Of a stretch of DNA of 64,000 bases, positions 24,909 through 40,567 are shown in pieces. The stretch spans positions 558,001 through 622,000 of the forward strand of contig CP084618.1 of NCBI GenBank assembly GCA_025917655.1, read 5' to 3'. Positions within the stretch are counted from its first letter, which is position 1; each line of letters begins with the position of its first letter. Made by a program: the position numbers and the translations under genes. The notes under the pieces were generated by a model. It saw only the letters and a list, made by a program, of their open reading frames with translations, ran no database searches and was not told the origin of the DNA. The stretch comes from Chlorella sorokiniana. Taxonomy: Eukaryota; Chlorophyta; Trebouxiophyceae; Chlorellales; Chlorellaceae.

Positions 24909-25592
24909 TGCGGGCAGAAAACGGCTGATCAAGAAGCCTACGTATAATGTCTGTCGCTTTATGTTGCATGCAGAACTTGTTGAGCGGGGTTGTAGGGATG
25001 GGGTACATCGAGATGTACATGCCGCCGCAGGTGGATGGAGCAGGGTGGATGGGCGTCTTGACCCCGCAACCATCTTAAGCTCCAGCTGTCAGTTTCACAT
25101 AGGGTATGTCTTCCATCAAGACAATACACACACTGCCTGTGCCAGGCCCGCGCGCGCGGCCCCCCCGCCCGCGCCCCCAGCCCCTCCCTGGAAAAACCGG
25201 GAACAGGCGTCAACGATGCCCTCCGCTTAGCAACACAACTCTCCCAAGCTGCAGCACAAGAACTGTTGAAAGTGCCGAAGGATTTTCGTCAGTCGCCCTT
25301 CAGATCACGTTGTCACTGCCAAAGCGCTGCAAGCGCAACAGCAAAACGCTCCTACAACGCTCCCACTGTGAGGAATCCGAGGAAGACAACAAAACTCTTC
25401 CCGTGCAGGGATACACATTCTATTACAAGGTTTAACATGTACGGTTTGACGAATCTAAAAATCAGCTTCGATAAACTGCAACTTTGTGGCCGAAAGTATC
25501 AATCTCTTCTGCCAGAACGGGCCTCAGCAAGTGGGCTTCAAGACACGATAAGAAGAGGGTTGAGAGCAGTCAGCTGTGTATGGTATTTTCAA
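24909..25592. other. SufC upstream region and left flank of repeat array
   Basis: About 680 bp upstream of the SufC start. The part near 24909-25110 should hold its promoter. A very C-rich patch lies at 25145-25190. From about 25260 the sequence becomes AT-richer, as in the array that follows. No gene is supported. Confidence 0.4.
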
Positions 25593-25948
25593 GGGTGACA
25601 GAGAAGTTAGATTGGCTTTGATCAAACAGTGGTCCTGAATAGGTAGAGGGAATGCACAAAACTGAGTGAAGAGCAGCAAGGTGCAGCGTCAATGCGCCGA
25701 ACGACATGCAGCTTTCATGCCAGAATATTGTGCAAGAAAAAGGTACATGACGCACTCAAGTTGCCTGCAAATGCTGCTTGCTCGCCACTTGGGAGCACAA
25801 AACAATCAGCTGCAAGAGGAGGTAAGGTGAGCAAAGGCATGAAAATATCATGATACGGATTTGTTTTGCCACAGCATGCCCTTCAGCAATTAGGCAGCCA
25901 ACATGCAACCAAGGTGGCAGTGTGACAGAACACCGACGGCGACTCACA

Positions 25949-26555
25949 TTACAAAGTGCTGGGCCGTGTTCCACGCTTCCGCAGGTGCGAAGGGGCAACA
26001 GAGGCCTGGGAGGGCAGCTCCGGCTCCTGCGTATCTTCCAAGCCAGGCATGTCGCGACATTCCTTTACAGCTGGATCAGCTTTGTCTCCCTCTGCGCTGC
26101 CGTCCACTTGTGGGGGCACATCTACGAGCAGGTGACAAGACATTGTGCACTTCCGCTGATCAATCGACACAGAAACGCCAACCCACTTAACTGCCAACTG
26201 GCACCTCACCTGGCAAGGAGGGCAAGGGGCGCATCGATAGCTCAATATTCATACGTATTCTTTTGCCCTGTTCTCCCATATTGTCAAGCATCTCAAACAG
26301 TTTTCTCTCTTCTTCATGAGCCTTTCTGACCGCCTGGTCAGCGCGCTGTCTTGCAATCACCGCCAAAATTTCGTTCTGCCTCATCCGCCTTCGTACTTCT
26401 GCATGATAGGTTGGCTACTAGGACATCTAACAGCTGTACATCACTTCTGACCTGCAAGGCACAACGCGGAAAGCCTCACCCTCTGGTGTTGCTGGCACTG
26501 GCGGTGTCGGCATCGACGGCGGCGGAGGAGGCTGGGTGCTTTGAGCGGAGCCCAT
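25949..26555 (-). CDS. Small array gene, copy A (intact, MGS.. proline-rich helical protein)
   Basis: I do not recognise this family. Three exons, 26555-26480, 26398-26210 and 26121-25949, join with matching phases to 145 aa. The order is MGSAQSTQ, a five-proline run and a P/T/V stretch; then a charged helical segment (RRRMRQNEILAVIARQRADQ and RKLFEMLDNMGEQGKRI); then a tail with PPQVDGSAE, KECRDMPG and HLRKRGTRPSTL. MGSxxS/T at the start fits an N-myristoylation signal. No membrane segment is seen. Both introns are about 80-90 nt with GTGAGG donors; the second has the acceptor CTCGTAG. All four units keep the same start, splice sites and stop position, which argues for a real gene. The first intron has a second possible acceptor (CTTGCAG) further upstream. 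Confidence 0.65.
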
Positions 26556-27900
26556 GCTGGTCCGAGCCAGCGCTCAATCACGGGACCTCCGAATAAAGCT
26601 GCAGGGTAGGACAACAGAGGCTCTACGCCATCGTTGTGGCCGAAGAGGGCGTCAGCAGGAACCGCACCGTAGAAAACGTGCCGGACTCCTTGCAGACGAG
26701 TGTAACGGCTTGCTGAACGGAAGGAGGTGTGGCGAAAGTCAGGCGAAAGTACCGCCTCGGCTCGCCGGGTACACAGCAGCACGGACGCTTGTCCATCTTG
26801 TTGTGCGCTGCGTACGCCCTTCAAAACACCATGTCGTTAATGTGGACACGAGCCCTCTGCTCGCACAGGCTGGCTTCGGTGCGGTAGTGCAACGGGGAGA
26901 CTCCGCTCAGAGACAGCACACCTGTTTTTTGGCGCCCAGGTGGTGCCCTCTGCCAAATCGTGTGCCTGGCATGATTGATGTGCTGCGTTGCTTCTTCGTG
27001 TGGCTGCCCAGTTAGCTGCCGGCGGTGTGACAGCGTCGATGCAGACCTCCTCACAACTAGCAGATGGTGTTCATGTCGGCAAGGATATGCCGCCAGAGGG
27101 TGCTCTGGCTGCAGCTAAGCAGAGTACTTCCTGGCATCATTCTCTCCATCAATCTCTCCGGCATGCATCCTCATTGCGGTTAGAGCAGCACGTGATGAGA
27201 GCTTGCCAGCCCTGCGGCCACGGGCCACCGCATGGACAAGTACGGATGCCAGTGCCGATGCCAGTGCGATTCACAGCGAGTCACAGCTGCTGCCGCCAGC
27301 CTGGCAGCCTAGAAGCGGCTCACAGTGCTGGAAGGGCAGGCAGCGGCAGCCATGAAGCCTAAGCAGCACAATGCTGTGGCTTGGGTACGCTGCCAGCTAG
27401 CCGGCTGTGTCCACTGCGGTCGACAGCCAGCAGAAACCCCAGCACCTCCAATGCCCGCAGCACACAGGTTTACATCATGTCATCTACAGTAGGTGGAAGC
27501 TGATGACTTGCCGCGCCAGCTCGGTCCTTTCAGCTGCTCGCAGCAGGGCAAGAGCGTAGCATCTGCCAGCGGACGCGAGGTAGATGGGCATTGTGTCTTC
27601 TGCCGACACTGCAGCACAGTGCAGGTAGACTGCATATAGCGCCCGCTCACATCGCACAGCAGTTGTTGTCCCCTGGCAGCAAGCTGTGGCCTTGCTTTTC
27701 CACAGCAAACAGGCTGCGTAGCCTGCATTTGAATCGCTGCCCAACGATTGTAAACGGCAGCTGACGACCCGGTGCTTACAGCAACAGTTCCATCCTGAGT
27801 GCAGGCTCAGCTTGGCTTGCTGCAACAGTATTGTGTGCCAAGCAGCCAGGTCGTCAGCCTGGCGACAGCCAAGGTGATGCTGCAGGCTGGGGGCGCGCGG

Positions 27901-28480
27901 CGGCGAGGCGGCACAAGCCGCTGCTGAACCACCAAAGCCGCAGCGGCTACGGTTGCCAGCACCCGCCAGTGGGCAGCGAGCCTCCGCTGCCTTGGCATGA
28001 TGGTTTGCAGCAGCTGCCCCTTGCCAGCCTCATCTGGATCAGCAGCAGCCGCGGTCTGTGTTGCAGCGCCCGGGAACCGCAGTGGGGAGCGCGGCGGCGA
28101 GGCGGCACAAGCCGCTGCTGAACCACCAAAGCCGCAGTGGCCGCGGTTGCCAGCACCCGCCAGTGGTCAGCGAGCCTCCGCTGCCTTGGCATGATGGTTT
28201 GCAGCAGCTGCCCCTTGCCAGCCTCATCTGGATCAGCAGCAGCCGCGGTCTGTGTTGCAGCGCCCAGGAGACCGCAGTGGGGAGCGCGGCGGCGAGGCGG
28301 CATAAGCCGCTGCTGAACCACCAAAGCCGCAGTGGCCACGGTCGCCAGCGCCCGCCAGTGGGCAGCGAGCCTCCGCTGCCTTGGCATGATGGTTTGCAGC
28401 AGCTGCCGCTTATCAGCCTCATCTGGATCAGCAGCAGCCGCGCTCTGTGTTGCAGCGCCCAGGAACCGCAGTGGGTGCGG
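27901..28480. repeat. Threefold tandem copy of a 195-bp block in unit A
   Basis: Three consecutive copies of about 195 bp begin near 27901, 28094 and 28290, each opening with cggcgaggcggcac. Units B, C and D hold only one copy each. On the minus strand each copy can be read as PRQRRLAAHWRxLAT..AALVVQQRL. Copy 1 is out of frame with copies 2 and 3, so a continuous repeat protein is doubtful. Confidence 0.85.
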
Positions 28481-29019
28481 GCTCGCTGCCCGTTTGTGGA
28501 ACAGGCGGAAGATGCGCAGCTGGACCTGTTGCACAGCTTGGAGGACTTTTGGCGGGCGCATGGCAGCAGGATGTTGGCACCGCATTCTGTGACCTCTGCA
28601 CCCTGTTGCGTAGTCGTCAAAAGAGGCGCTGGCAGCAGCAACACCTCCTGCAGCCAGATTTGCTGCATCAACTGTTCCTCTGCAACACGCTGATCATTAG
28701 GCAAGCGGCTCCTACAGGGCTTCGTTTGGCAGAGGAAGGCAACTCAATGCTGTCCATCCTGTGGCTGCGCGGGTTTGTGCGGTATGCAAACGGTACCAGC
28801 CCCAGTCCCGCCGTTGAGTGCAGCGGTGCAGCGCAGCTGAAGAGTTTTTGACGCGACATGAGCAGGCAAGCATTGTTTGCACAGCTTCGCACAAAGAGTT
28901 TGAAAAATTTGCTGTCTGCATGATGCAGGGTTTTGCCAGCATTGACCGCAGTGCAACAGCGCAGGTTACGTAACAGAATGTGCAATGCATTGCTCATTCA
29001 TACAGCACCCTTGTATCTC

Positions 29020-29215
29020 AGCGAGCAGGGCTCCCAAGCTTGGCAGCACGGCCGCGATGGCAGCTGCCATCGCCTGCTTTTTCAACCTTTCAGTTTCGTG
29101 CTTTGGGCGCATGAGGCGTGGAAATAAAGATGTGCTTGGAGTTACAGCTGCAGCTGTGGCAGCATCATCAGTGGGCTGCCATCGGCACCGGTGGAGTTGC
29201 CCTTAAAGACTGAGA
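29020..29215 (-). pseudogene. Decayed MON2 exon fragment, unit A
   Basis: The minus strand reads MRPKHETERLKKQAMAAA where the MON2 exon at about 43455-43640 reads VRPEHVIELWEEQAAAAA. The DNA upstream of this block (29110-29210) also aligns with the MON2 exon coding QLYPEYIFTIVRL. Stop codons interrupt the frame. It is a fragment only and is not expected to be functional. Confidence 0.65.
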
Positions 29216-29680
29216 CTGGAAGAGGCTTTTAAGCTACATGTAAGAAGAAGGGTGACCTTGTCCAGCGCGGTCAACTGTACATGCAATTGAAAAGGGTGAC
29301 AGACAAATCAAGGAAGAGTGGATTTAAGCACCCAGTGGTCTTGACGAGGTAGAGGAAATGCACAAAACGAGTGACAAGCAGCGAGTGCACCGTCAATGCG
29401 CTGAACGCCCTGTAGCTTTCATGCCGCATCATGGACTTGTCCGTTTCAGTCCAGGATAATGTGCAAGAACAAGGTGCATGACGCACTCCAGATGCCTGCG
29501 AGTGCTGCTTGGTCAACGCTTGGGAGCACAACAATCAGCTGCAAGACGTGGAGGGAGGTGGACACAGGCACGAAGATATCAGGACACGGCAAAGTGTTGC
29601 CACAGCATGCCCTTCAGCAATCAGGCAGCCAACATGCAACCATAACAGCAGCGTAACAGAACAGTCAACGGCCACTCACA

Positions 29681-30297
29681 TCACAAAGTGCTGGACCTTG
29701 CTGCACGCTTCCGAAGGTGGGAAGGGGCAACGGAGACCTGTGATGGCAGTGCAGGCTGCAGCTGATCTTCAAAGCCAGGAAAATCGCGACATTCATTTGC
29801 AGCTGGATCAGGTGAGTCGGCTTCTGTGATGCCGTCCACTTGGGGGGCATATCTACGAGCAGGTGCAAAGACATTGTTCACCTGCGCTGTTTCATTTGAT
29901 TATTTTCAAACCAAAATGCCAACAGACCAACCAGACTGCCAAGCACATCTCACCAGGCAAGGGGGTAAGGGCTCCAATGCTGGCTCCATGCGCTCTCGCA
30001 ATCTTCTGCCCTCTTCTCCCATATTGTCAAGCATCTCAAACAGTTTCCTCCGTCCTTCATGAGCGTCTCGAATCAGTTGGTACACGCCCTGTCTTGCAAT
30101 CACCGCCTTGACTTTGTCCTGCCTCATCCGCCTTTGCAATTCTGCATGCAAGGTCGGCCAATAAGTGATCAGACAGCCGAAACGTCACTTCTGACCGCCA
30201 AGACACACCGCAGAAATCCTCACCCTCTGGCGTTGCTGCGCGCCGGCGGCGGCGGCGGCGGAGGAGGAGGAGGCTGGGCGCTGTGAGCGGAGCCCAT
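29681..30297 (-). pseudogene. Small array gene, copy B (frame broken)
   Basis: The same three exons as copy A: 30297-30224, 30141-29954 and 29852-29681. The start (MGSAHSAQ plus ten prolines), helical segment (RKLFEMLDNMGEEGRRLRER) and tail (ECRDFPGFED, SHLRKRAARSSTL) are all recognisable. Compared with copy A, exon 1 is one base long modulo three, exon 2 is one short at a C run (29961-29965 on the plus strand), and exon 3 lacks one base near its start. Some of these may be sequencing errors, but three together suggest a broken copy. Confidence 0.6.
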
Positions 30298-30627
30298 GCT
30301 CGTCCGAGCTCGATCACGGGACCACCGAATAAAGCTGCAGGAAGGTAGGACAGCAGAGGCTCCACGCCATCGTCGTGGCCGAAGAGGGCGTCCAGCAGGA
30401 GCCACGCCGTAGAAAACGTGCCGGACTCCTTGCAGACGAGCGTAACGGCTTGCTGAACGGAAGGAGGTGTGGCGAAAGTCAGGCGAAAGTACCGCCTCGG
30501 CTCGCCGGGTACACAGCAGCACGGACACTTGTCCATCTTGTTGCGCGCTCGTACGCCCTTCAAAGCACACCATGTCGTTAATGTGGACACGAGCCCTCTG
30601 CTCGCACAGGCTGGCTTCGGTGCGGTA

Positions 30628-31608
30628 CAGCTCCGGCGTGTCAACTTGAGAGGTTTTGTGGACCCAAAAAACGCTATGTGCCGTATTTTAAGCCCCACCA
30701 AGCGTAAAAGTGGAGCGTAAAACCCGCTTCGCGCTCCATGAAATGTGGCATGAAGCGCGAAGCGTGTAGCTTGAAGCGTAAAACATGTGCGTAAAACTTG
30801 TAGCATGGAGCGTATAACTTATAATTTGAAGTTTTTATCATATTCTCAATCCCCTGGGCCGTCGAAACGCTGTTTCAGCATTCAACCCCATCCCAGCAAC
30901 TGCTCTTCTGCGACCTCAATATGGTGGTGGCTGCGCTGGTGCTGGTCGTATGGAAGGCTTGGCCGGGAGCGGTGAACTGAGATCCAGCAACTGGCTGCCC
31001 CTGCCCGCCACCGCCGCCCAGCACCCTGCCCTTGCCGAGCCATGCATGGCCTGTCCTGGTCGCACTAGGGATCTCCTGCTGCAAATGGTCAGCTGCTGGG
31101 GTATACTGTGGGGCTGGCAAACTGATTCCTGGTCTGGATCCTGCGACGAGTGCTGCACGGTAACCGCAGGCGCTTGCTGCGCTGTGGCGCTGGCTCGCAA
31201 CTGTCGTCAGACAGGTCAATTACAGAATCTGCACTCGGCTAGCTTCACCAGGGGTGGGGAGAAGAGCCAATGCTTGCAGGATGCACATTAAGCACTGCTA
31301 CACCTGTCCACGCATCCAATCCCTTGAACCCGCTGGGGTTGAATGCTGAAACAGCGTTTTGGCGGCCCAGGGGATTGAGAATATGATTAGAACTCCCAGT
31401 TATAAGTTATACGCTTCAAGCTACAAGTTTTACGCTTCAAGTTGTACGCTTCACGCTTCGCGCTTCACGCTTCGCGCTTCATGCCACGCGCTTCATGCTT
31501 CACGCTTCGCGCTACGCGGCACTTTTTAAGCTCCTTGAAGCGCATTTCAGGGTCCCTTAAAGTGAGTTGAAGCCCTATAAAGTCTCTCAAGTTGACCCGC
31601 CGGAGCTG
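30628..31608. mobile_element. Non-autonomous inverted-repeat element, TA target duplication
   Basis: A 981-bp insertion in unit B with long terminal inverted repeats (about 30628-30891 and 31334-31608). Both ends begin CAGCTCCGGCG and continue GTCAACTTGAGAG with one mismatch between. It is flanked by TA on both sides (30626-30627, 31609-31610). Unit A keeps the empty site (single TA at 26885-26886), which proves insertion. The arms are full of gaagcg/cgcttc motifs. The 440-bp centre encodes nothing resembling a transposase. TA duplication suggests mobilisation by a Tc1/mariner-type enzyme; this is an inference. It lies about 330 bp upstream of the start of small-gene copy B. Confidence 0.88.
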
Positions 31609-33364
31609 TAGTGCAACGGGGGAGACTCCGCTCAGAGACAGCACACCTGTTTTCCAACGCCCAGGTGGTGCCTTCTACCAACCAAATCGTGTGGCTGGCA
31701 TGATTGATGTGCTGCGTTGCTTCTTCGTGTGGCTGCCCATTTAGCTGCCGGCGAGTGACAGCGTCGATGCATACCTCCTCACAACCAGCAGATGGTATTC
31801 ATGTCGGCAAGGATGTGCCGCCAGAGGGTGCTCTGGCTGCAGCTAAGCAGAGTACTTCCTGGCATCATTCTCTCCATCAAGCTCTCCGGCATGCATCCTC
31901 ATTGCGGTTAGAGCAGCACGTGATGAGAGCTTGCCAGCCCTGCGGCCACGGGCCACCGCATGGACAAGTACCGATGCCAGTGCCGATGCCAGTGCGATTC
32001 ACAGCGAGTCACAGCTGCTGCCGCCAGCCTGGCAGCCTAGAAGCGGCTGGAGCGCTGGAAGCAGAGGCAGCACGATGCTGTCAGCCTGGCAACGCTGCCA
32101 GCTGATTGCAAGCTGCTGGCGAAAGCTGGGCTCTGCAAACCAGCCAGCGGCAAACCCAGCACCTTTGATGCCTGCAACACACATGTTTGCATCATGTCAT
32201 CCACAGCAACTGGAAGCTGATGGACTTGCCGCGCCAACTCGATCCTCTCAGCTCCTTGCAGCATGGCATTTGCGCAGCATCTGCCAGCAGACGCCAAGCA
32301 GATGGGCACTTTGGCTTCTGCCGACACTGCAGCACAGCACGGGCAGCCTGCATGCTGCGCGCGCTCACACTGCACAGCAACCAATGCGCCTGTCGGCAAG
32401 CTATGGGCTTGCGTTTTTCGACATCAATTAGGCTGCATAGCCTGCATTTGATCCGCTGCCTCGTGATTTTAGGCAGCAGCAGACGACTTGGTGCTTATAG
32501 CCACACTTGCATCCTGAGTGCAGGCACAGCTTGGCTTTCTGGAGCAGTGTTGTGTGCCAAGCAGCCTGCCTGTCAGCCTGGCGACAGCCAAGGTGATGCT
32601 GCAGGCTGGGGAACGCGGCGGCGAGGCGGCACAAGCCGCCGCTGAACCACCGAAGCCGCAGTGGCTACGGTTGCCAGCGCCCGCCAGTGGGCAGCAAGCT
32701 TCCGCTGCCTTGGCATGATGGTTTGCAGCAGCTGCCCCTTACCAGCCTCAGCAAGATCAGCAGCAGCTGTGTGCTGTGTTGCAGCGCACCAGAAACCGCA
32801 GAGGATGCGCGCTCGCCGCGCGTTTGTGAAGCAGGCGGACGGTGCGCAGCTGGACCTGTTGCACAGCTTGTTGGACGTATGGCTGGCGCAATGCAGCAGG
32901 GAGTTAGCACCGCGTTCTGTGGCCTCTGCACCTCATTGCGCAGTCGTCAATAGAGGCGCTGGCAGCAGCAACACCTCCTGCAGCCTGAGTTGCTGCATTG
33001 ACAGTCCCTCTGCAACACGCTGTTCATCATGCATGCGGCTCCCACAGGGCTCCATCCTGGCAGAGCAGGCGACTCGACGCTGTCCATCCAGCGGCTGCAA
33101 GGGTTGTTGCGCTCTGCAGGCAGCACCAGCCCCAGTCACGCTTTGAGTGCAGCGGTGCAGCGCCGCTGATGAAGGTTTGACACGGTGAATGGCATGAGCA
33201 GGCAACCAATGTTTGCACAGCTTCACACAAGAAGGATGAAGGATGAGATTGAAAGATTCCTGTCAGCATGATGCAGGTTTGTGCCAGCGCTGTTCGCAGT
33301 GCAGCGGCGCATGATGCATGAATGTGCAAAGATTGCCCTCTGATCAGCCCCCTTGCGTCTCTGT

Positions 33365-33600
33365 GCGCAGGCCTCCCAAAGTCGGCGGCATGGCCGTCGC
33401 GGCAGCTGCAGCTGCCACCGCCTGCTCCTCCCACCTTTCAGTTTCGTGCTCTGGGCGCATGAGACGCAGTCATAGGTGCGGTCATAAAGATGTGCGTGGA
33501 GCTACGCTGCAGCTGTGGAACGGGGCGGGAGCCAGCTGCAGCAGCATCATCAGTGGGCTGCCATCGGCACCGGTGGAGTTGCCCTTAAAGACTGAGACTG
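33365..33600 (-). pseudogene. Decayed MON2 exon fragment, unit B
   Basis: This is the clearest of the three fragments. The minus strand reads LRLMRPEHETERWEEQAVAA against MON2 VRLVRPEHVIELWEEQAAAA. The DNA identity continues over roughly 230 bp (33375-33600 against about 43440-43640), with stop codons and small indels upstream of that peptide. Confidence 0.75.
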
Positions 33601-34037
33601 GAAGAGGCTTTAAGCTACATGTAAGAAGAAGCCAGCGCAGTCAACTGCACATGCAATCAAAGAGAGTGAGAGAAATTAAGGTAGAGAAAATTTATGCAGC
33701 CAGGGGTCTTGACAAGTGAAGGGAGATTGCATACAACGAGTGACAAGTATCGAGGTGCAGCACCAACGCGCCGAACGCCCTGCAGCTTTCATGCCGCATC
33801 ATGTAGTCAGCCGTTACAGTCCATGATTGTGCATGACTAAGGTACATGACGCACTCAAAATGCTTGCGGGTGCTGCTTGGGAGCACAGCAATCAGCTGCA
33901 AGACGTGGAGGGAGGTGGACACAGGCATGAAGACATCAGGACACGGCAAGGTGTTGCCACAGCATGCCCTTCAGCAATCAGGCAGCCAACATGCAACCAT
34001 AATAGCAGCGTGACAGAACAGCCGACGGCGACTCACA

Positions 34038-34640
34038 TCACAACGTGCTGGACCTTGCTGCACGCTTCCGCAGGTGCGTAGCGGCAATGGAGGCCTGGGA
34101 GGGCAGCGCCAGCTGCAGAGCACCTTCAAAGCCAGGAATATCGCGACATTCATTTGCAGCTGGATCAGCTCTGTCGTTTTCTGCGCTGCCGTCCACTTGT
34201 GGGGGCATATCTGCGAGCAGGTGCAAAGAAATTGTTCACCTGCGCTGCTCGATCAACATCCAAACGCCAGCCCAATAAACTGCCATGCAACAACTCACCG
34301 GGCAAGGGGGCAAGGGCTGCATTTGTGGCTCCACACTCTCTCGAATTTTTCTTCCCAGTTCTCCCATACCGTCAAGCAGCTCAAGCATGCTCGACCGTGC
34401 TGCATGAGCTTCTCGCAAGGCTTGGTAAGCGTGTTGTTGTATAATCACCTGTGTAATTCTAAGCTGCCTCAGGTTCCTTTGTACTTCTGCATGCAAGGTC
34501 GGCAACTAGGTGAGCACACAGCTGACCGTCACTTCTGACCTGCAAGACAAAACGCCGAAAGCCTCACCCTCTGGCGTTGGCGTTGGCAGCGGTGGCGTTG
34601 GCGGCGGCGGAGGAGGCTGGGTGCTTTGAGCTGAGCCCAT
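34038..34640 (-). CDS. Small array gene, copy C
   Basis: Exons 34640-34568, 34486-34299 and 34210-34038. It starts MGSAQSTQ, then a six-proline run and TPPLPTPTPE. The helical segment differs from copy A (EVQRNLRQLRITQVI, MLELLDGMGELGRKI) and the tail is highly conserved (ECRDIPGFEG, THLRKRAARSSTL). Exon 2 is one base shorter than in copy A, at the C run corresponding to plus-strand 34306-34310. As written, exon 3 is entered in the wrong phase. Given the many one-base-short runs in this window, the copy may be intact in the organism. Confidence 0.5.
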
Positions 34641-36619
34641 GCTCGACCGAGGCAACGACCTGTCACGGGACCTGTAAATAGGGCTGCAGGAAGGTAGGAC
34701 TAGAAGGGCTCCACGCCCTCGTTGTGGCCGATGAGGACGGCCAGTGGAACCACGCCGTGGAAACACGTGTCGGTCCACTCGCAGACGAAGACAACAGCTT
34801 GCTGAACGGCCTTGTTGAGAGGTGGTGCGCGCAGAAGTACCGCCTCGGTTCGCCCTGTACAAAGTGGCGCAGACACTCACCCATCTTGTTGTGCACTGCG
34901 TATACCCTTCAAAGTACACCACGTCTTGAAACTGGGCTTCCGCCCCTTCCTCGCACGGTTGGCTTGGCTTTGGTGCGGCAGAGTCGGGGCCATTCGCCAA
35001 ATAGTTTCTGTGCCTGGCATCATTATGCGCTTGTGCTGCACAGCCTCTTCCTAAACAGAGGGCTGCTGAGAGTAGTGAAACAGACTTTGGCATAGCCACA
35101 GCACGGCACATCCCAACCCGTGCAGGCAGCGGTGGGCGGAAGTTGTTGTCTGCCCGCTGCTGCCAAGAGAAGTCTACCAGAGCCGCGCCGCGAGCTGCGG
35201 GGACTGTTACTGCATCATGGCGACACCCCTCACACGCACCAGATGGGGCTCATGTCGGCAAAGGTACAGGGCCAGCGGGTGCTGAGGCCGCTGGAAGCGC
35301 ATACAGCGGCAGCCATGCAGCCCAAGCAGCACGATGCTGCCGGCCTGGCAACGCCGCCAGCTGATTGCAAGCTACTGGAGAAAGCTGGGCTCTGCAATCT
35401 TGCCAGCGGCAACCCCAGCACCTCCAATGCCCACAGCACAGGATTATATCATGTCATTCACATTAGGCGGAAGCTGATGGACTTGCCGCGCCACCTCGGT
35501 CCTCTCAGCTGCTCTCAGCAGGGCAGGAGCGCAGCATCTGCCAGCAGACGCTAGGCCGATGGGCACTTTGGCATCGGCCGACACTGCAGCACAGCGCAAG
35601 CAGCTTGCATGCTGTGTGTGCTCGCACTTCACAAATACCAATGCGTTTGTCCGTGAGCTATTGGCTTGCGTTTTCCACATCAATCAGGCTGCATAGCCTG
35701 CATTTGATCCGCTGCCTCACGATTGTTGCCGGCAGCGTCAGCAGACGACCTGGTGCTTATAGCCACAGTTGCATCCTGAGTGCAGGCACAGCTTGGCTTT
35801 CTGGAGCAGTGCTGTTCAGCAAGCAGCCTGCCTGTCAGCCTGGCGACAGCCAAGGTGATGCTGCAGGCTGGGGAACGCGGCGGCGAGGCGGCACAAGCCG
35901 CCGCTGAACCACCGAAGCCGCAGTGGCTACGGTTGCCAGCGCCCGCCAGTGGGCAGCAAGCTTCCGCTGCCTTGGCATGATGGTTTGCAGCAGCTGCCCC
36001 TTACCAGCCTCAGCAGATCAGCAGCAGCTGTGTGCTGTGTTGCAGCGCACCAGAAACCGCAGAGGATGCGCGCTCGCCGCGCGTTTGTGAAGCAGGCGGA
36101 CGGCGCGCAGCTGGACCTGTTGCACAGCTTGTTGGACGTATGGCTGGCGCAATGCAGCAGGGAGTTAGCACCGCGTTCTGTGGCCTCTGCACCTCATTGC
36201 GCAGTCGTCAAAGAGGCGCTGGCAGCAGCAACACCTCCTGCAGCCTGAGTTGCTGCATTGACAGTCCCTCTGTAACACGCTGATCAGCAGGCAAGCTGAT
36301 CCCACAGGGCTCCATCCTAGCAGAGGCAGGCGGCTTGATGCTGCCCATCCAGTGGCTGCGCGGCTTTGTGCGCTCTGCAGACGGCACCAGCCCCAGTCCC
36401 TCTTTGAGTGCAGCGGCGCAGTGCCGATGATGAAGGTTTGACGCGACAAAATGGCACAAGCAGGCAAGCATTGTTTGCACAGCTTCGCACAAAGAGTTTC
36501 AAGGATGCCTGTTGGTCAGCATGATGCAGGGTTTTGCCAGCGTTGACCGCAGTGCAACGGCACATAATGCGTGAATGTGTAAAACACTGCCCATTGAATC
36601 AGCCCCCTTGTATCACAGT

Positions 36620-36850
36620 GCGCAGGCCTTCAAAGGTCGGCGGCACAAGCGCAACGGCAGCGGGCGCCGACACTGCCTTCTGCCCCCACATTTCAGCTGA
36701 GTGCTCTGCAGGGCCCAGCTGGCTGCATGAGGCGGCCATCAAGATGTGCTCGAAGTTACACCCGCGGCTGTGGAATGTGGGTGGGCGGCAGCTGTGGCAG
36801 CATCGTCAACGCTGCCATCTGCACCAGTGGAGTTGCATTCAAGGGCTACA
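36620..36850 (-). pseudogene. Decayed MON2 exon fragment, unit C
   Basis: Weaker but collinear with the fragments of units A and B. The minus strand reads AEMWGQKAVSAPAAVALVPP where MON2 has IELWEEQAAAAAVAD. The adjoining block (36750-36850) still resembles the MON2 exon DNA. It is probably non-functional. Confidence 0.5.
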
Positions 36851-36916
36851 GGAGGCTTGAAGATACGTGTAAGAAGAAGGGTGACCTTGTCCAGCGCAGT
36901 TAACTGTACATGCAAT

Positions 36917-39455
36917 CTAAGAGGGTGACAGAGAAATCAAGGAAGAGTGGCTATGAGCACCCAGTGGACTTGACGAGGTAGAGGAGATGCACAAAACGAG
37001 TGACAAGCATCGAGGTGCAGTGCCGATGCGCTGAACGCCATGCAGCTTTCACGCCGCATCATGGAATCAGCAGCTGCAGTTCACAATAATGTGCATGAAT
37101 GAGGTACATGACGCTCTGAAAATGCCTGCAGGTGCTGCTTGGTCAACGCTTGGGAGCACAGTAATCAGCTGCAAGACGTGGAGGGGAGGTGAACACAGGC
37201 ATGAGATATCAGGATACAAAGCATTGCCAGAAAATACCTTTCAGTGATCAGGCTGCCGACATGCAACCATGGCAGCAGCGTGCCAGAACAACCATCGTCG
37301 ACTCACATCACAACGTGTTGGACCTTGCTGTACGCTTCCGCAGGTGGGAAGGGGCAACGGAGACCTGTGATGGCAGTGCAGGCTGCAGTGCATCTTCATT
37401 GCCAGGAATGTCGCGACATTCCTTTGCAGCTGGATCAGGTGAGTCGGCTTCTGCGCTGCCGTCCAGTTGTCGGGGCATATCTACGAGCAGGGGCAAAGAC
37501 ATTGTTCACCTGCGCTGCTCAATCAACATCGAAAGGTTAGCCCAATAAACTGCCATGCAACAACTCACCGGGCAAGGGGGCAAGGGCTGCATTTGTGGCT
37601 CCACACTCTCTCGAATTTTTCTTCCCAGTTCTCCCATACCATCAAGCAGCTCAAGCATGCTCGACCGTGCTGCATGAGCTTCTCGCAAGGCTTGGTAAGC
37701 GTGTTGTTGTATAATCACCTGTGTAATTCTAAGCTGCCTCAGGTTCCTTTGTACTTCTGCATGCAAGGTCGGCAACTAGGTGAGCACACAGCTGACCGTC
37801 ACTTCTGACCTGCAAGACAAAACGCCGAAAGCCTCACCCTCTGGCGTTGGCGTTGGCAGCGGTGGCGTTGGCGGCGGCGGAGGAGGCTGGGTGCTTTGAG
37901 CTAAGCCCATGCTCGTCCGAGCCAACGATCGGCCACGAGACCTCCAAATAGGGCTGCAGGAAGGTAGGACGACAGAGACTCCACACCCGCGTCTTGGCCG
38001 ATGGGGACGTCCAGTAGCAGCCACCACGCCGTGGCAAATTGTCGGGCTGCTTATGGACGAAAACCACGCCTTGCCGAACGGCCTGGTGAGAAGGTGGTAG
38101 GCGCACAAGTACCGCCTTGGCTCATCCTGTACAAAGCAGAGGGTTTAGTTGCCCATCTTGTTGCGCGCTGCGTACAACCTTTAGAAAGCGCAGCATCCTG
38201 AAGTTGGACTTGCGCTCTTTGCTCGCACGGTTGGCTTTGGTGCGGCAATTTTTCAAAGGTGGTGCCCTCCGCCAACCAATTTCTGTGCCTGACATCATGA
38301 TGTGCTGCGCCACTTCTTCCTTAAAAACGGCTACCGAGATAAGTGAAGTAGACCTTGGCGTAGCACGGCATGTTCCAACCCACGCATGCAGCGGAAGGAA
38401 GCGTTTGTGTTGCCTGCCCGCAATAGAAGTCAGAGCCGCACCGCGAGTCACCGGGACTGTCACAGCGTCAATGATGAAAGCCCGCAGAGACAAAGGAGGT
38501 GGTTTGCAAAGGTATGGCGCGAGCACCAGCCAGGCTGGTGCTGTGGCCGCAGCGAGGCAGAGGCCTTCCTGGCATCAATCTCTCCATCGTGCACCCTCGT
38601 TGCAGCTGGAGCAGCACGTGATGAGAGCTTGCCGGCCTTGCGATCCCTGGGCAGCGCGTGGACCAGGCACTGACGCACTGCGATGCCTAGCGTGCCACAG
38701 CTGGCGCCGCCAGCCTGGTAGCCTACAAGCGGCTGGAAGCGCTGGAAGCGCAGGCAGCGGCAGCCATGGAGCCCAAGCAGCACGATGCTGTCGGCCTGGC
38801 ACCGCTATCAGCTGATTGCAAGTGGCTGGTGAAAGCTTAGCTCTGCAAACCAGCCAGTGGCAACCCCAGCACCTTTTGATGCCTGCAACACAAAGGCTTG
38901 ACGTGAAGCCATCCACAGCAACTGGAAGCTCATGGACTTGCAGTGCAAGTTCGATGCTTTCAGCTCCTTCCAGCAGGGCAGGAACGCAGCACCTGCCAGC
39001 AGACGCTAGGCAGACGGGCACTTTGGTTCAGGCGACACTGCAGCACAGCGCAGGCAGCCTGCATGCTGCGCACGCTCAGACTGCACAGCAACCAATGCGC
39101 CTGTTGGCAAGCTATGGGCTTGCGTTTTCCACATCAAACAAGCTGCATAGCCTGCATTTGATCCGCTGCCTTGCGATTGTGGCGGCAGCGGCAGCTGACG
39201 ACCTGGTGCTTCTGGCTGCACCTTCATCCTGAGTGCAGGCACAGCTTGGCTTTCTGGAGCAGTGCTGCTCAGCAAGCAGCCTTCTCGTCAGCCAAGTGAC
39301 AGCCAAGGTGATGCTGTAGGCTGGTGAGTGCGGCGACGAGGCGGCACCAGCCGCTGCTGAACCACCAAAGCCGCAGTGACTACGGTTGCCAGCGCCGGCC
39401 AGTGGGCGGCGAGCCTCCGCTGCCTTGGCATGATGGTTTGCAGCAGCTGCCCCTT
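36917..39455. repeat. Array unit D (right end truncated)
   Basis: About 2.5 kb. It contains small-gene copy D, a degraded upstream module (37940-38110), a module on the minus strand with CLASAGRCC (about 38950-39120) and most of one 195-bp block. Similarity ends at about 39455 and the MON2-like piece is missing. Confidence 0.75.
37308..37910 (-). CDS. Small array gene, copy D
   Basis: Exons 37910-37838, 37756-37569 and 37480-37308. It starts MGLAQSTQ, followed by the same proline-rich stretch as copy C. Exons 1-2 and the first intron are nearly identical to copy C, while exon 3 is clearly different (PRQLDGSAE, ECRDIPGNED, SHLRKRTARSNTL). Like copy C it is one base short at a C run in exon 2 (plus-strand 37576-37580), so the frame is broken as written. 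Confidence 0.5.
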
Positions 39456-39642: not shown

Positions 39643-40567
39643 TTATGCTACAAGTAAAGCTGATAGCAACATCTTTGCACATTGGTCACCGCATGCGCTG
39701 CAGCAGAGACGCCACCATCGCGGCCAGCCATTTGAACACTTCAAAGGTTTGGCCAGCCCCGAGAAGAGGCTGAGGGTCATGACTAGGTCGTGGTCTGTCA
39801 TCTCGTGGATGACCAGGATCACAGTGAAGATGGCAACGGCCGTCACAACCCGGGCAGACCAGTCCACTGCGGGTGGAAGTGGAACGGGGAGATGGATGTA
39901 AGAACGCGCCTTTCAGCAAGCACGTCCACCTTGCTTTGTTTCGTTACCTTCGTGCTGAGCACGAGCGGGCAGCGCAGCTGGCACCGCCGCCTGTGCCGCA
40001 ATCGGCACTGCCACCTCGTCCACGGCCGGCAGCGCAACATCCTGCACAGCGGCCTGCACAGCTGCAGCCTGTCCAACAGCGCCCGGAATGCGCGCCAGCC
40101 TTGTCAGGCTGTTGGCAATGGCTGTGATTCTCGCAGAGTTGGCTGTCGCTGTTTGCCAAAAAACCCGCAGAATCGTCTCCGCCACCTCCTCAGGGAGCGC
40201 CCCATTCTCCACCAGTCGAGCGATGGTTTCCTCCATCTGCCTTCCCTCATTTGCGTCCATTGCCTCCATTGCTAATGCAGATGCGATGATGCAAACTGAC
40301 TGCAGCAAGGAGGGCTTGAGAGGTTGGCAACGAGCAGGTAAAGCATGTTGTGGCTGGTAAGGAACTCACACGTGAGGCCCACTGTGCCTGCAGGCTGTAG
40401 ATGGCACTTTCAGTGTAAAGGCTGAATTCCCCGTAGTCTCCCAAGCTTGCCAACGTGTTTGAGCCACAACAAGTGCTGCCTGAAGCGCTGCTGGCTTTTC
40501 GAGGCAGGATGCAGGTGCAGGAGACTTTGATGGAACCAGCAATCAGCGGAAGAGGGTCAGAATCCAC
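39643..40567 (-). CDS. Unrecognised three-exon gene with one membrane segment
   Basis: Exons 40567-40370, 40299-39948 and 39866-39643 join with matching phases to 257 aa. The donors are GTGAGT and GTAACG. I do not recognise the product. Exon 2 begins SVCIIASALA and carries a helical stretch (EETIARLVENGALPEEVAET, RITAIANSLTRLAR) followed by an A/V-rich region. Exon 3 carries a hydrophobic segment (VVTAVAIFTVILVI) and then HEMTDHDLVMTLSLFSGLAK. After that point a shift of one base would give a more natural ending (FEVFKWLAAMVASLLQRMR, stop at 39686), so the C terminus may be affected by a base error near 39745. It lies between the array and MON2. The start is the first Met and is uncertain; the gap to the MON2 end is only about 90 bp. 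Confidence 0.5.

Follow-up and report, generated by a model that had tools for sequence, protein, structure and literature searches.

The stretch analysed here, a 64-kb window of Chlorella sorokiniana DNA (C13:558001-622000; positions below are those of the window), lies roughly midway along a contig of 1.206 Mb, in a genome of 38.8 Mb and 15 contigs, which we regard as photosynthetic because it holds 41 matches to the chlorophyll a/b-binding family (exons counted apart). Self-comparison confirmed what had been read from the sequence alone, namely a real tandem array of four direct units (u1 to u4), each with one three-exon gene; the array spans 25534-39455, and its genes lie on the minus strand. 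Full units measure 3.2-4.4 kb and long matches between them show 72-85% identity across 0.7-3.2 kb, while the gene copies are 76-77% identical to that of u1 over ~600 bases; given these identities, the four-unit repetition exceeds chance. The genes belong to a small-gene family that is real, has no known relatives, changes fast, is probably expressed and, as far as searched, is restricted to one lineage.

The array and its gene copies

The units and gene copies are as follows (unit borders are approximate and come from self-comparison):

25534-29240, no strand: tandem unit u1
29241-33619, no strand: tandem unit u2, with an insertion of ~970 bp inside
33620-36870, no strand: tandem unit u3
36871-39455, no strand: tandem unit u4, cut short on the right, where 39455 marks the end of the longer matches
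26480-26555, minus strand: u1 exon 1, MGSAQST start of the myristoylation type and proline-rich linker (sequence reading, start-pattern test)
26210-26398, minus strand: u1 exon 2, charged module predicted to form a long helix (coding scan; fold, mean predicted local distance difference test score, pLDDT, 91)
25949-26121, minus strand: u1 exon 3, tail ECRDxPG...LPSQ..VAP..LRKR, stop TAA (relatives' alignment, coding scan)
29681-30297, minus strand: u2 gene copy, exons 30297-30224, 30141-29954 and 29852-29681 (phase disturbed in the assembly; independent exon 2 in database protein P0002)
34038-34640, minus strand: u3 gene copy, exons 34640-34568, 34486-34299 and 34210-34038 (spliced-looking database match P0001)
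37308-37910, minus strand: u4 gene copy, exons 37910-37838, 37756-37569 and 37480-37308 (shared start and splice sites)

The splice sites are common to the four copies (with a slash at the exon border, first donor G/GTGAGG, first acceptor ATGCAG/, second donor /GTGAG, second acceptor TCG[TC]AG/), and the stop position is shared as well, with TAA in u1 and TGA in u2-u4; on both counts the sequence-only reading was right. The start is less uniform than it had stated: ATGGGC opens all four copies, but u2 does not continue as AQST (MGSAHSA, against MGSAQST in u1 and u3 and MGLAQST in u4). Downstream TGTAA signals were uninformative, occurring within 700 bases of five of the seven family copies described below at uneven distances.

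An identical reading-frame design, also claimed for the four copies, is not what the assembly holds, since only u1 is in frame throughout. Exon 2 has 189 nt in u1 but lacks one base in u2-u4 (188 nt), the shortfall lying in a run of C at the end of the exon, and the join of exon 2 to exon 3 is therefore out of frame in these three copies. The u2 copy is further off phase, with an exon 1 of 74 nt and an exon 3 that is one base short (172 nt). Database proteins of u2 (P0002) and u3 (P0001 and P0004) pass the exon-2 C-run site in frame; such independent sequence covers u2 and u3, and none is at hand for u4. A base dropped from the C run of the assembly, or a strain difference, would explain the exon-2 deficit of u2-u4.

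The family had been described as locally amplified, which the four-copy array bears out, but it is not confined to the array: one diverged relative lies on contig C2 (C2:948300-948981) and two lie on contig C5 (C5A, C5:1269219-1269915, and C5B, C5:1294251-1294932). The C2 copy, first seen in a genome protein search (E 0.0086) and matched in exon 3 at the DNA level (E 7e-8), has an MGSSLSSQ start, the same G/GTGAGG donor and an exon-2 relative upstream of the exon-3 match. With its protein as query, C5A and C5B were found, which stand 25 kb apart in opposite orientation and are 79% identical over 1.1 kb. All three relatives keep the MGS start, the phase-1-type GGTGAGG donor, an exon-2 relative and the PSQ..LxKR tail, and 15 positions in exons 2-3 do not vary among the seven copies, including PSQ, L and KR of the tail. 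Of the three relatives, C5B alone keeps its frame across all exons; the phase of C5A is broken in exon 1, and a TAG stands at the end of exon 2 in C2.

A follow-on genome protein search added no further members among the best candidates scored; because the genome searches score best candidates only, seven copies are a lower bound. Three weak protein matches were discarded as presumed chance: C6:2166140, which on inspection contains a stop, C3:732349 and C2:3846715. Near the C2 relative, an 851-bp direct repeat (C2:954839-955689 and 959150-960000, 99.8% identical, 4.3 kb apart) was also observed, whose second copy runs to the end of the stretch examined. As for base composition, the array has a G+C content of 56-59% in 2-kb steps, and the window beyond the array and its left edge 62-76%. 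Near the C2 copy the value is 49-60% per kb; in 2-kb steps, C5A has 60% and C5B 59-67%. The array, the C2 copy (C2:944001-960000) and C5A (C5 near 1.269 Mb) share DNA of lower G+C (49-60%) than most of the window, with C5B borderline and the array itself in mid-contig.

Protein-database searches returned 0, 4 and 3 hits, corresponding to six distinct proteins, all from the same alga or a close strain. The sensitivity of these searches was limited (the three-hit search scored 7,991 candidates), and because the zero-hit search missed proteins of the same alga, absence from other algae is weakly tested. P0005 is u1 itself, P0006 is an allele of u1 with 3 replacements in 65 residues, and P0003 is identical to the C2 tail. 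P0001, of 87 amino acids and encoded on a 1,776-base contig, consists of u3 exon 2 fused to exon 3 at the predicted junction, with intron 2 exactly missing. Judged by this join and by the size of the contig, P0001 looks like the product of a spliced transcript or complementary DNA (cDNA), and it is the best sign of transcription for the family.

The earlier statement that the product fits no known family agrees with Pfam, where nothing exceeded the cut-off for A1 (5 members) or A2 (7 members): the 7 members of A2 gave no match at E <= 1, and for A1 two models matched one member each, far below the cut-off. In viral contigs, 10 stretches fitted the u1 exon-3 pattern and none was confirmed as a relative.

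Coding signal and divergence between copies

Coding potential was assessed by a frame-blind scan of the units, in which every stretch of 35 or more codons that was free of gaps and open in a unit pair was collected on both strands and in all frames (165 segments) and scored by the conservatism of their replacements against 100 column shuffles per segment; the pairs share branches and are not independent. Ranks 1-5 of 165 all fall over exon 2 (z 3.4-4.1), and exon 3 follows at ranks 8, 9, 10 and 15. No non-gene segment reaches the exon-2 scores, the best two having z values of 3.2 and 3.0. In a neutral simulation with substitutions alone, starting from u1, the probability that exons 2 and 3 would be stop-free in u2-u4 was 0.010; for the C5 pair, the stop-free probability was 0.23.

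Pairwise ratios of nonsynonymous to synonymous change (dN/dS) in the array range from 0.56 to 1.2, with the nearly identical exon 2 of u3 and u4 set aside, and those among the array, C2 and C5 from 0.24 to 0.85 where computable, silent sites being saturated in eight exon-2 comparisons. A codon model put omega at 0.99 in the array, at 0.73 among the three dispersed copies and at 0.79 across all seven. The sequence-only reading had proposed dN/dS among the copies as a check, with values near 1 counting against it. The outcome goes partly against that reading: the array value is close to 1, that for all seven copies lies somewhat lower, and neither differs significantly from 1 under the better-fitting model. 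As to its proposal that the gene is expressed and selected, expression is probable, as P0001 lacks intron 2, but dN/dS is not significantly below 1 under that model.

Two types of exon 2 occur in the array, one in u1 and u2 and the other in u3 and u4. Between these types, exon 2 is 67-70% identical, the introns 75-84% and exon 3 80-91%. The claim that other unit sequence has decayed more than the gene is therefore wrong for exon 2 (67.6% for u1/u3 and 69.7% for u2/u3), and the broader notion of a gene kept better than its surroundings is unsupported. In regions picked after the identity profile was already known, differences numbered 61 of 188 in exon 2 against 37 of 169 in the introns for u1/u3 (Fisher p 0.03) and 57 of 188 against 31 of 168 for u2/u3 (p 0.01), with no excess of exon 2 over introns for u1/u2 (p 1.0).

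Within the second type, the stretch between the start of exon 1 and the end of exon 2 is near-identical in u3 and u4 (exon 2 differs at 1 of 188 nt); intron 2, exon 3 and the 3' flank show 73-91% identity. This pattern points to a conversion-like exchange between the two units, the u3 side of which would be:

34267-34600, no strand: u3 side of the u3/u4 gene-conversion-like tract, 97-100% identity per 100 columns against 66-89% in the flanking columns

Predicted product and competing readings

All seven copies carry a myristoylation-type start, MG[SL][AS]xS, with M-G at the beginning and allowed residues at positions 3, 6 and 7 of what we take to be the PROSITE-type N-myristoylation pattern, in agreement with the possible myristoyl anchor suggested earlier. 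The predicted fold of u1 exon 2 contains helices at 3-45 and 48-60 (mean pLDDT 91), and the exon-3 part of P0001 is predicted to be almost without structure (mean pLDDT 64). The last residues of five tails out of seven, those of u1-u4 and C2, read R-x-x-[ST]-L, presumably akin to a kinase or 14-3-3 type end.

Considering these features together, we tentatively favour, at somewhat short of even odds, a reading in which the array holds four of at least seven members of a family that is coding by several tests and probably expressed, and that is predicted to encode a likely N-myristoylated membrane adaptor. Each exon would encode one module. Exon 1 would supply a myristoyl anchor at glycine 2 and a flexible proline linker; exon 2, a single charged helix of ~43 residues and a short second helix, both predicted, which may bind a partner or another copy; and exon 3, a disordered tail that exposes a conserved stretch for docking, of the form GxE, six residues, [LV]PSQxx[VI], four residues, L[RQ]KR. 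Through tandem duplication and the u3/u4 conversion-like exchange, the genome might retain at least two helix types, and the copies would then differ chiefly in the partners that they bind. A bolder extension, which we consider a long shot, is that these are fast-evolving, lipid-anchored recognition proteins of one algal lineage, with a constant anchor and docking tail and interchangeable helices, in which exon 2 would be shuffled by conversion in the array to yield a small helix repertoire.

Several results weigh against the adaptor reading. The three-exon frame is intact in only two of the seven copies of the assembly (u1 and C5B), the breaks being the C run of u2, u3 and u4, the exon-1 phase of C5A and the in-frame TAG at the end of exon 2 in C2. 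P0001 is also compatible with an intronless copy, its cDNA origin being deduced from the join and the contig size. The coding scan gave a z of just 1.7 for exon 3 of u1/u3 and just 2.2 for exon 2 of u3/u4, and the three codon positions change about equally. Under the better-fitting codon model, whose kappa came from a coarse grid, omega does not differ significantly from 1, with twice the log-likelihood difference (2dlnL) at 0.03 for the array, 2.08 for the dispersed copies and 2.98 for all seven; a worse-fitting model without kappa gave 0.25, 3.6 and 6.0, respectively. Myristoylation is predicted from the start motif, and membrane binding via the helix is unsupported because amphipathicity, measured as hydrophobic moment, was not above that of shuffles in any of the six helices tested (p 0.12-0.41).

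Part of this evidence fits a decaying tandem array, in which the gene was functional before duplication and the copies are now drifting pseudogenes whose frames are open by chance. The array omega, the roughly even change across codon positions and the phase disturbances of u2-u4 in the assembly would all be expected from such drift, and we hold it to be possible, if on the doubtful side. Pure decay is argued against by the open frames (P = 0.010) and by the conservative replacements of exon 2, the predicted exon on which the top signal of the scan falls. In the protein database, u2 and u3 occur without the exon-2 deficit, and u3 seemingly in spliced form. The C5 pair, 93.4% identical in exon 3 against 74% upstream, adds a weak argument, as its intron 2 is also 90.6% identical.

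Rather unlikely, in our view, is diversifying selection on exon 2 of a functional protein for recognition of a fast-changing partner, comparable with self/non-self or anti-parasite systems. The excess of exon-2 over intron change between helix types, in both u1/u3 and u2/u3, and the replacements in the u1 allele P0006 would suit it, but no such excess is seen in u1/u2 or in the C5 pair, and in u1/u3 exon 2 dS is raised alongside dN (0.51 and 0.42), which fits better with an older exon imported by conversion.

That the units belong to a mobile element or a viral insertion which multiplied at this site is very improbable and was disfavoured already. The lower-G+C tract and a transposon-like insertion within u2 might suggest it; however, a genome DNA search with two unit parts (the 607-base gene and a 1,554-base piece from elsewhere in the unit) found neither outside the locus, so the dispersed copies of a transposable element are not seen for them. 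Beyond the gene, the units hold no coding segment at exon-2 scores, the viral-contig candidates for u1 exon 3 were not confirmed, and the array has no inverted repeats of at least 80 bases besides the insertion arms (shorter ones were not sought).

Least probable of all, and rejected, is a SNARE-like helix protein in which exon 2 would provide one SNARE motif of the SNAP25 type, tethered by a lipid anchor. In PDB the family profile drew 14 sequences at E <= 1, every one of them SNAP25 (best E 0.015), but this match is non-significant and dominated by one redundant helical protein, Pfam gives no SNARE match at E <= 1, and the position of the glutamine that we take to be the SNARE central-layer residue is E in u2 and L in u3 and u4 and is unconserved in C2 and C5. 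At the profile level, the family weakly resembles the N-terminal SNARE motif of SNAP25 over the helix.

Taxonomically restricted (orphan) tandem gene families form a known class, as do N-myristoylated peripheral membrane adaptors. The family appears to be of the orphan kind, to which it would add a new case: it shares with that class small genes, local duplication, the lack of a domain match, fast change and, so far, a single lineage, and differs in that copies at separate loci retain the three-exon layout and the motifs of start and tail although silent sites between them are near saturation. With the adaptors, it has in common the start pattern, the proline-rich linker, the predicted helix and basic tail residues; it differs in having no sequence relation to a named member, and its modification is predicted. 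The interest of the array and its relatives is that a gene family without known relatives, in a photosynthetic alga, nevertheless has a history that can be traced through the array, C2 and C5. The exon modules seem to differ in rate, with the start and tail retained and the middle helix variable. The family may therefore serve as a test case for how new small genes hold an open frame and a splice plan under nearly free coding change, and also for whether such genes act at membranes.

Surroundings of the array

One flank of the array is an ABC-ATPase gene (Pfam ABC_tran), which we take to be SufC, and the other is a Mon2-like gene, whose Mon2_C match of 26.7 bits falls below the cut-off of 27. 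An adjoining minus-strand open frame of 150 amino acids (39913-40365) has no Pfam match at E <= 0.01, and its sole other match in the genome is weak (E 0.05). No RNA family was found in the window at gathering score. Within u1, a segment of 194-195 nt is present three times at 27890-28475 and once in each other unit, and falls in a part of the unit that, outside the gene, is among the best conserved.

The insertion in u2 is separate from the gene:

30627-31600, no strand: insertion with inverted arms at 30745-30890 and 31334-31487

Its arms are 86% identical, and a second copy lies at C8:560681-561694, in DNA of ~50% G+C; with these properties, the insertion looks like a DNA transposon or a miniature inverted-repeat transposable element (MITE).

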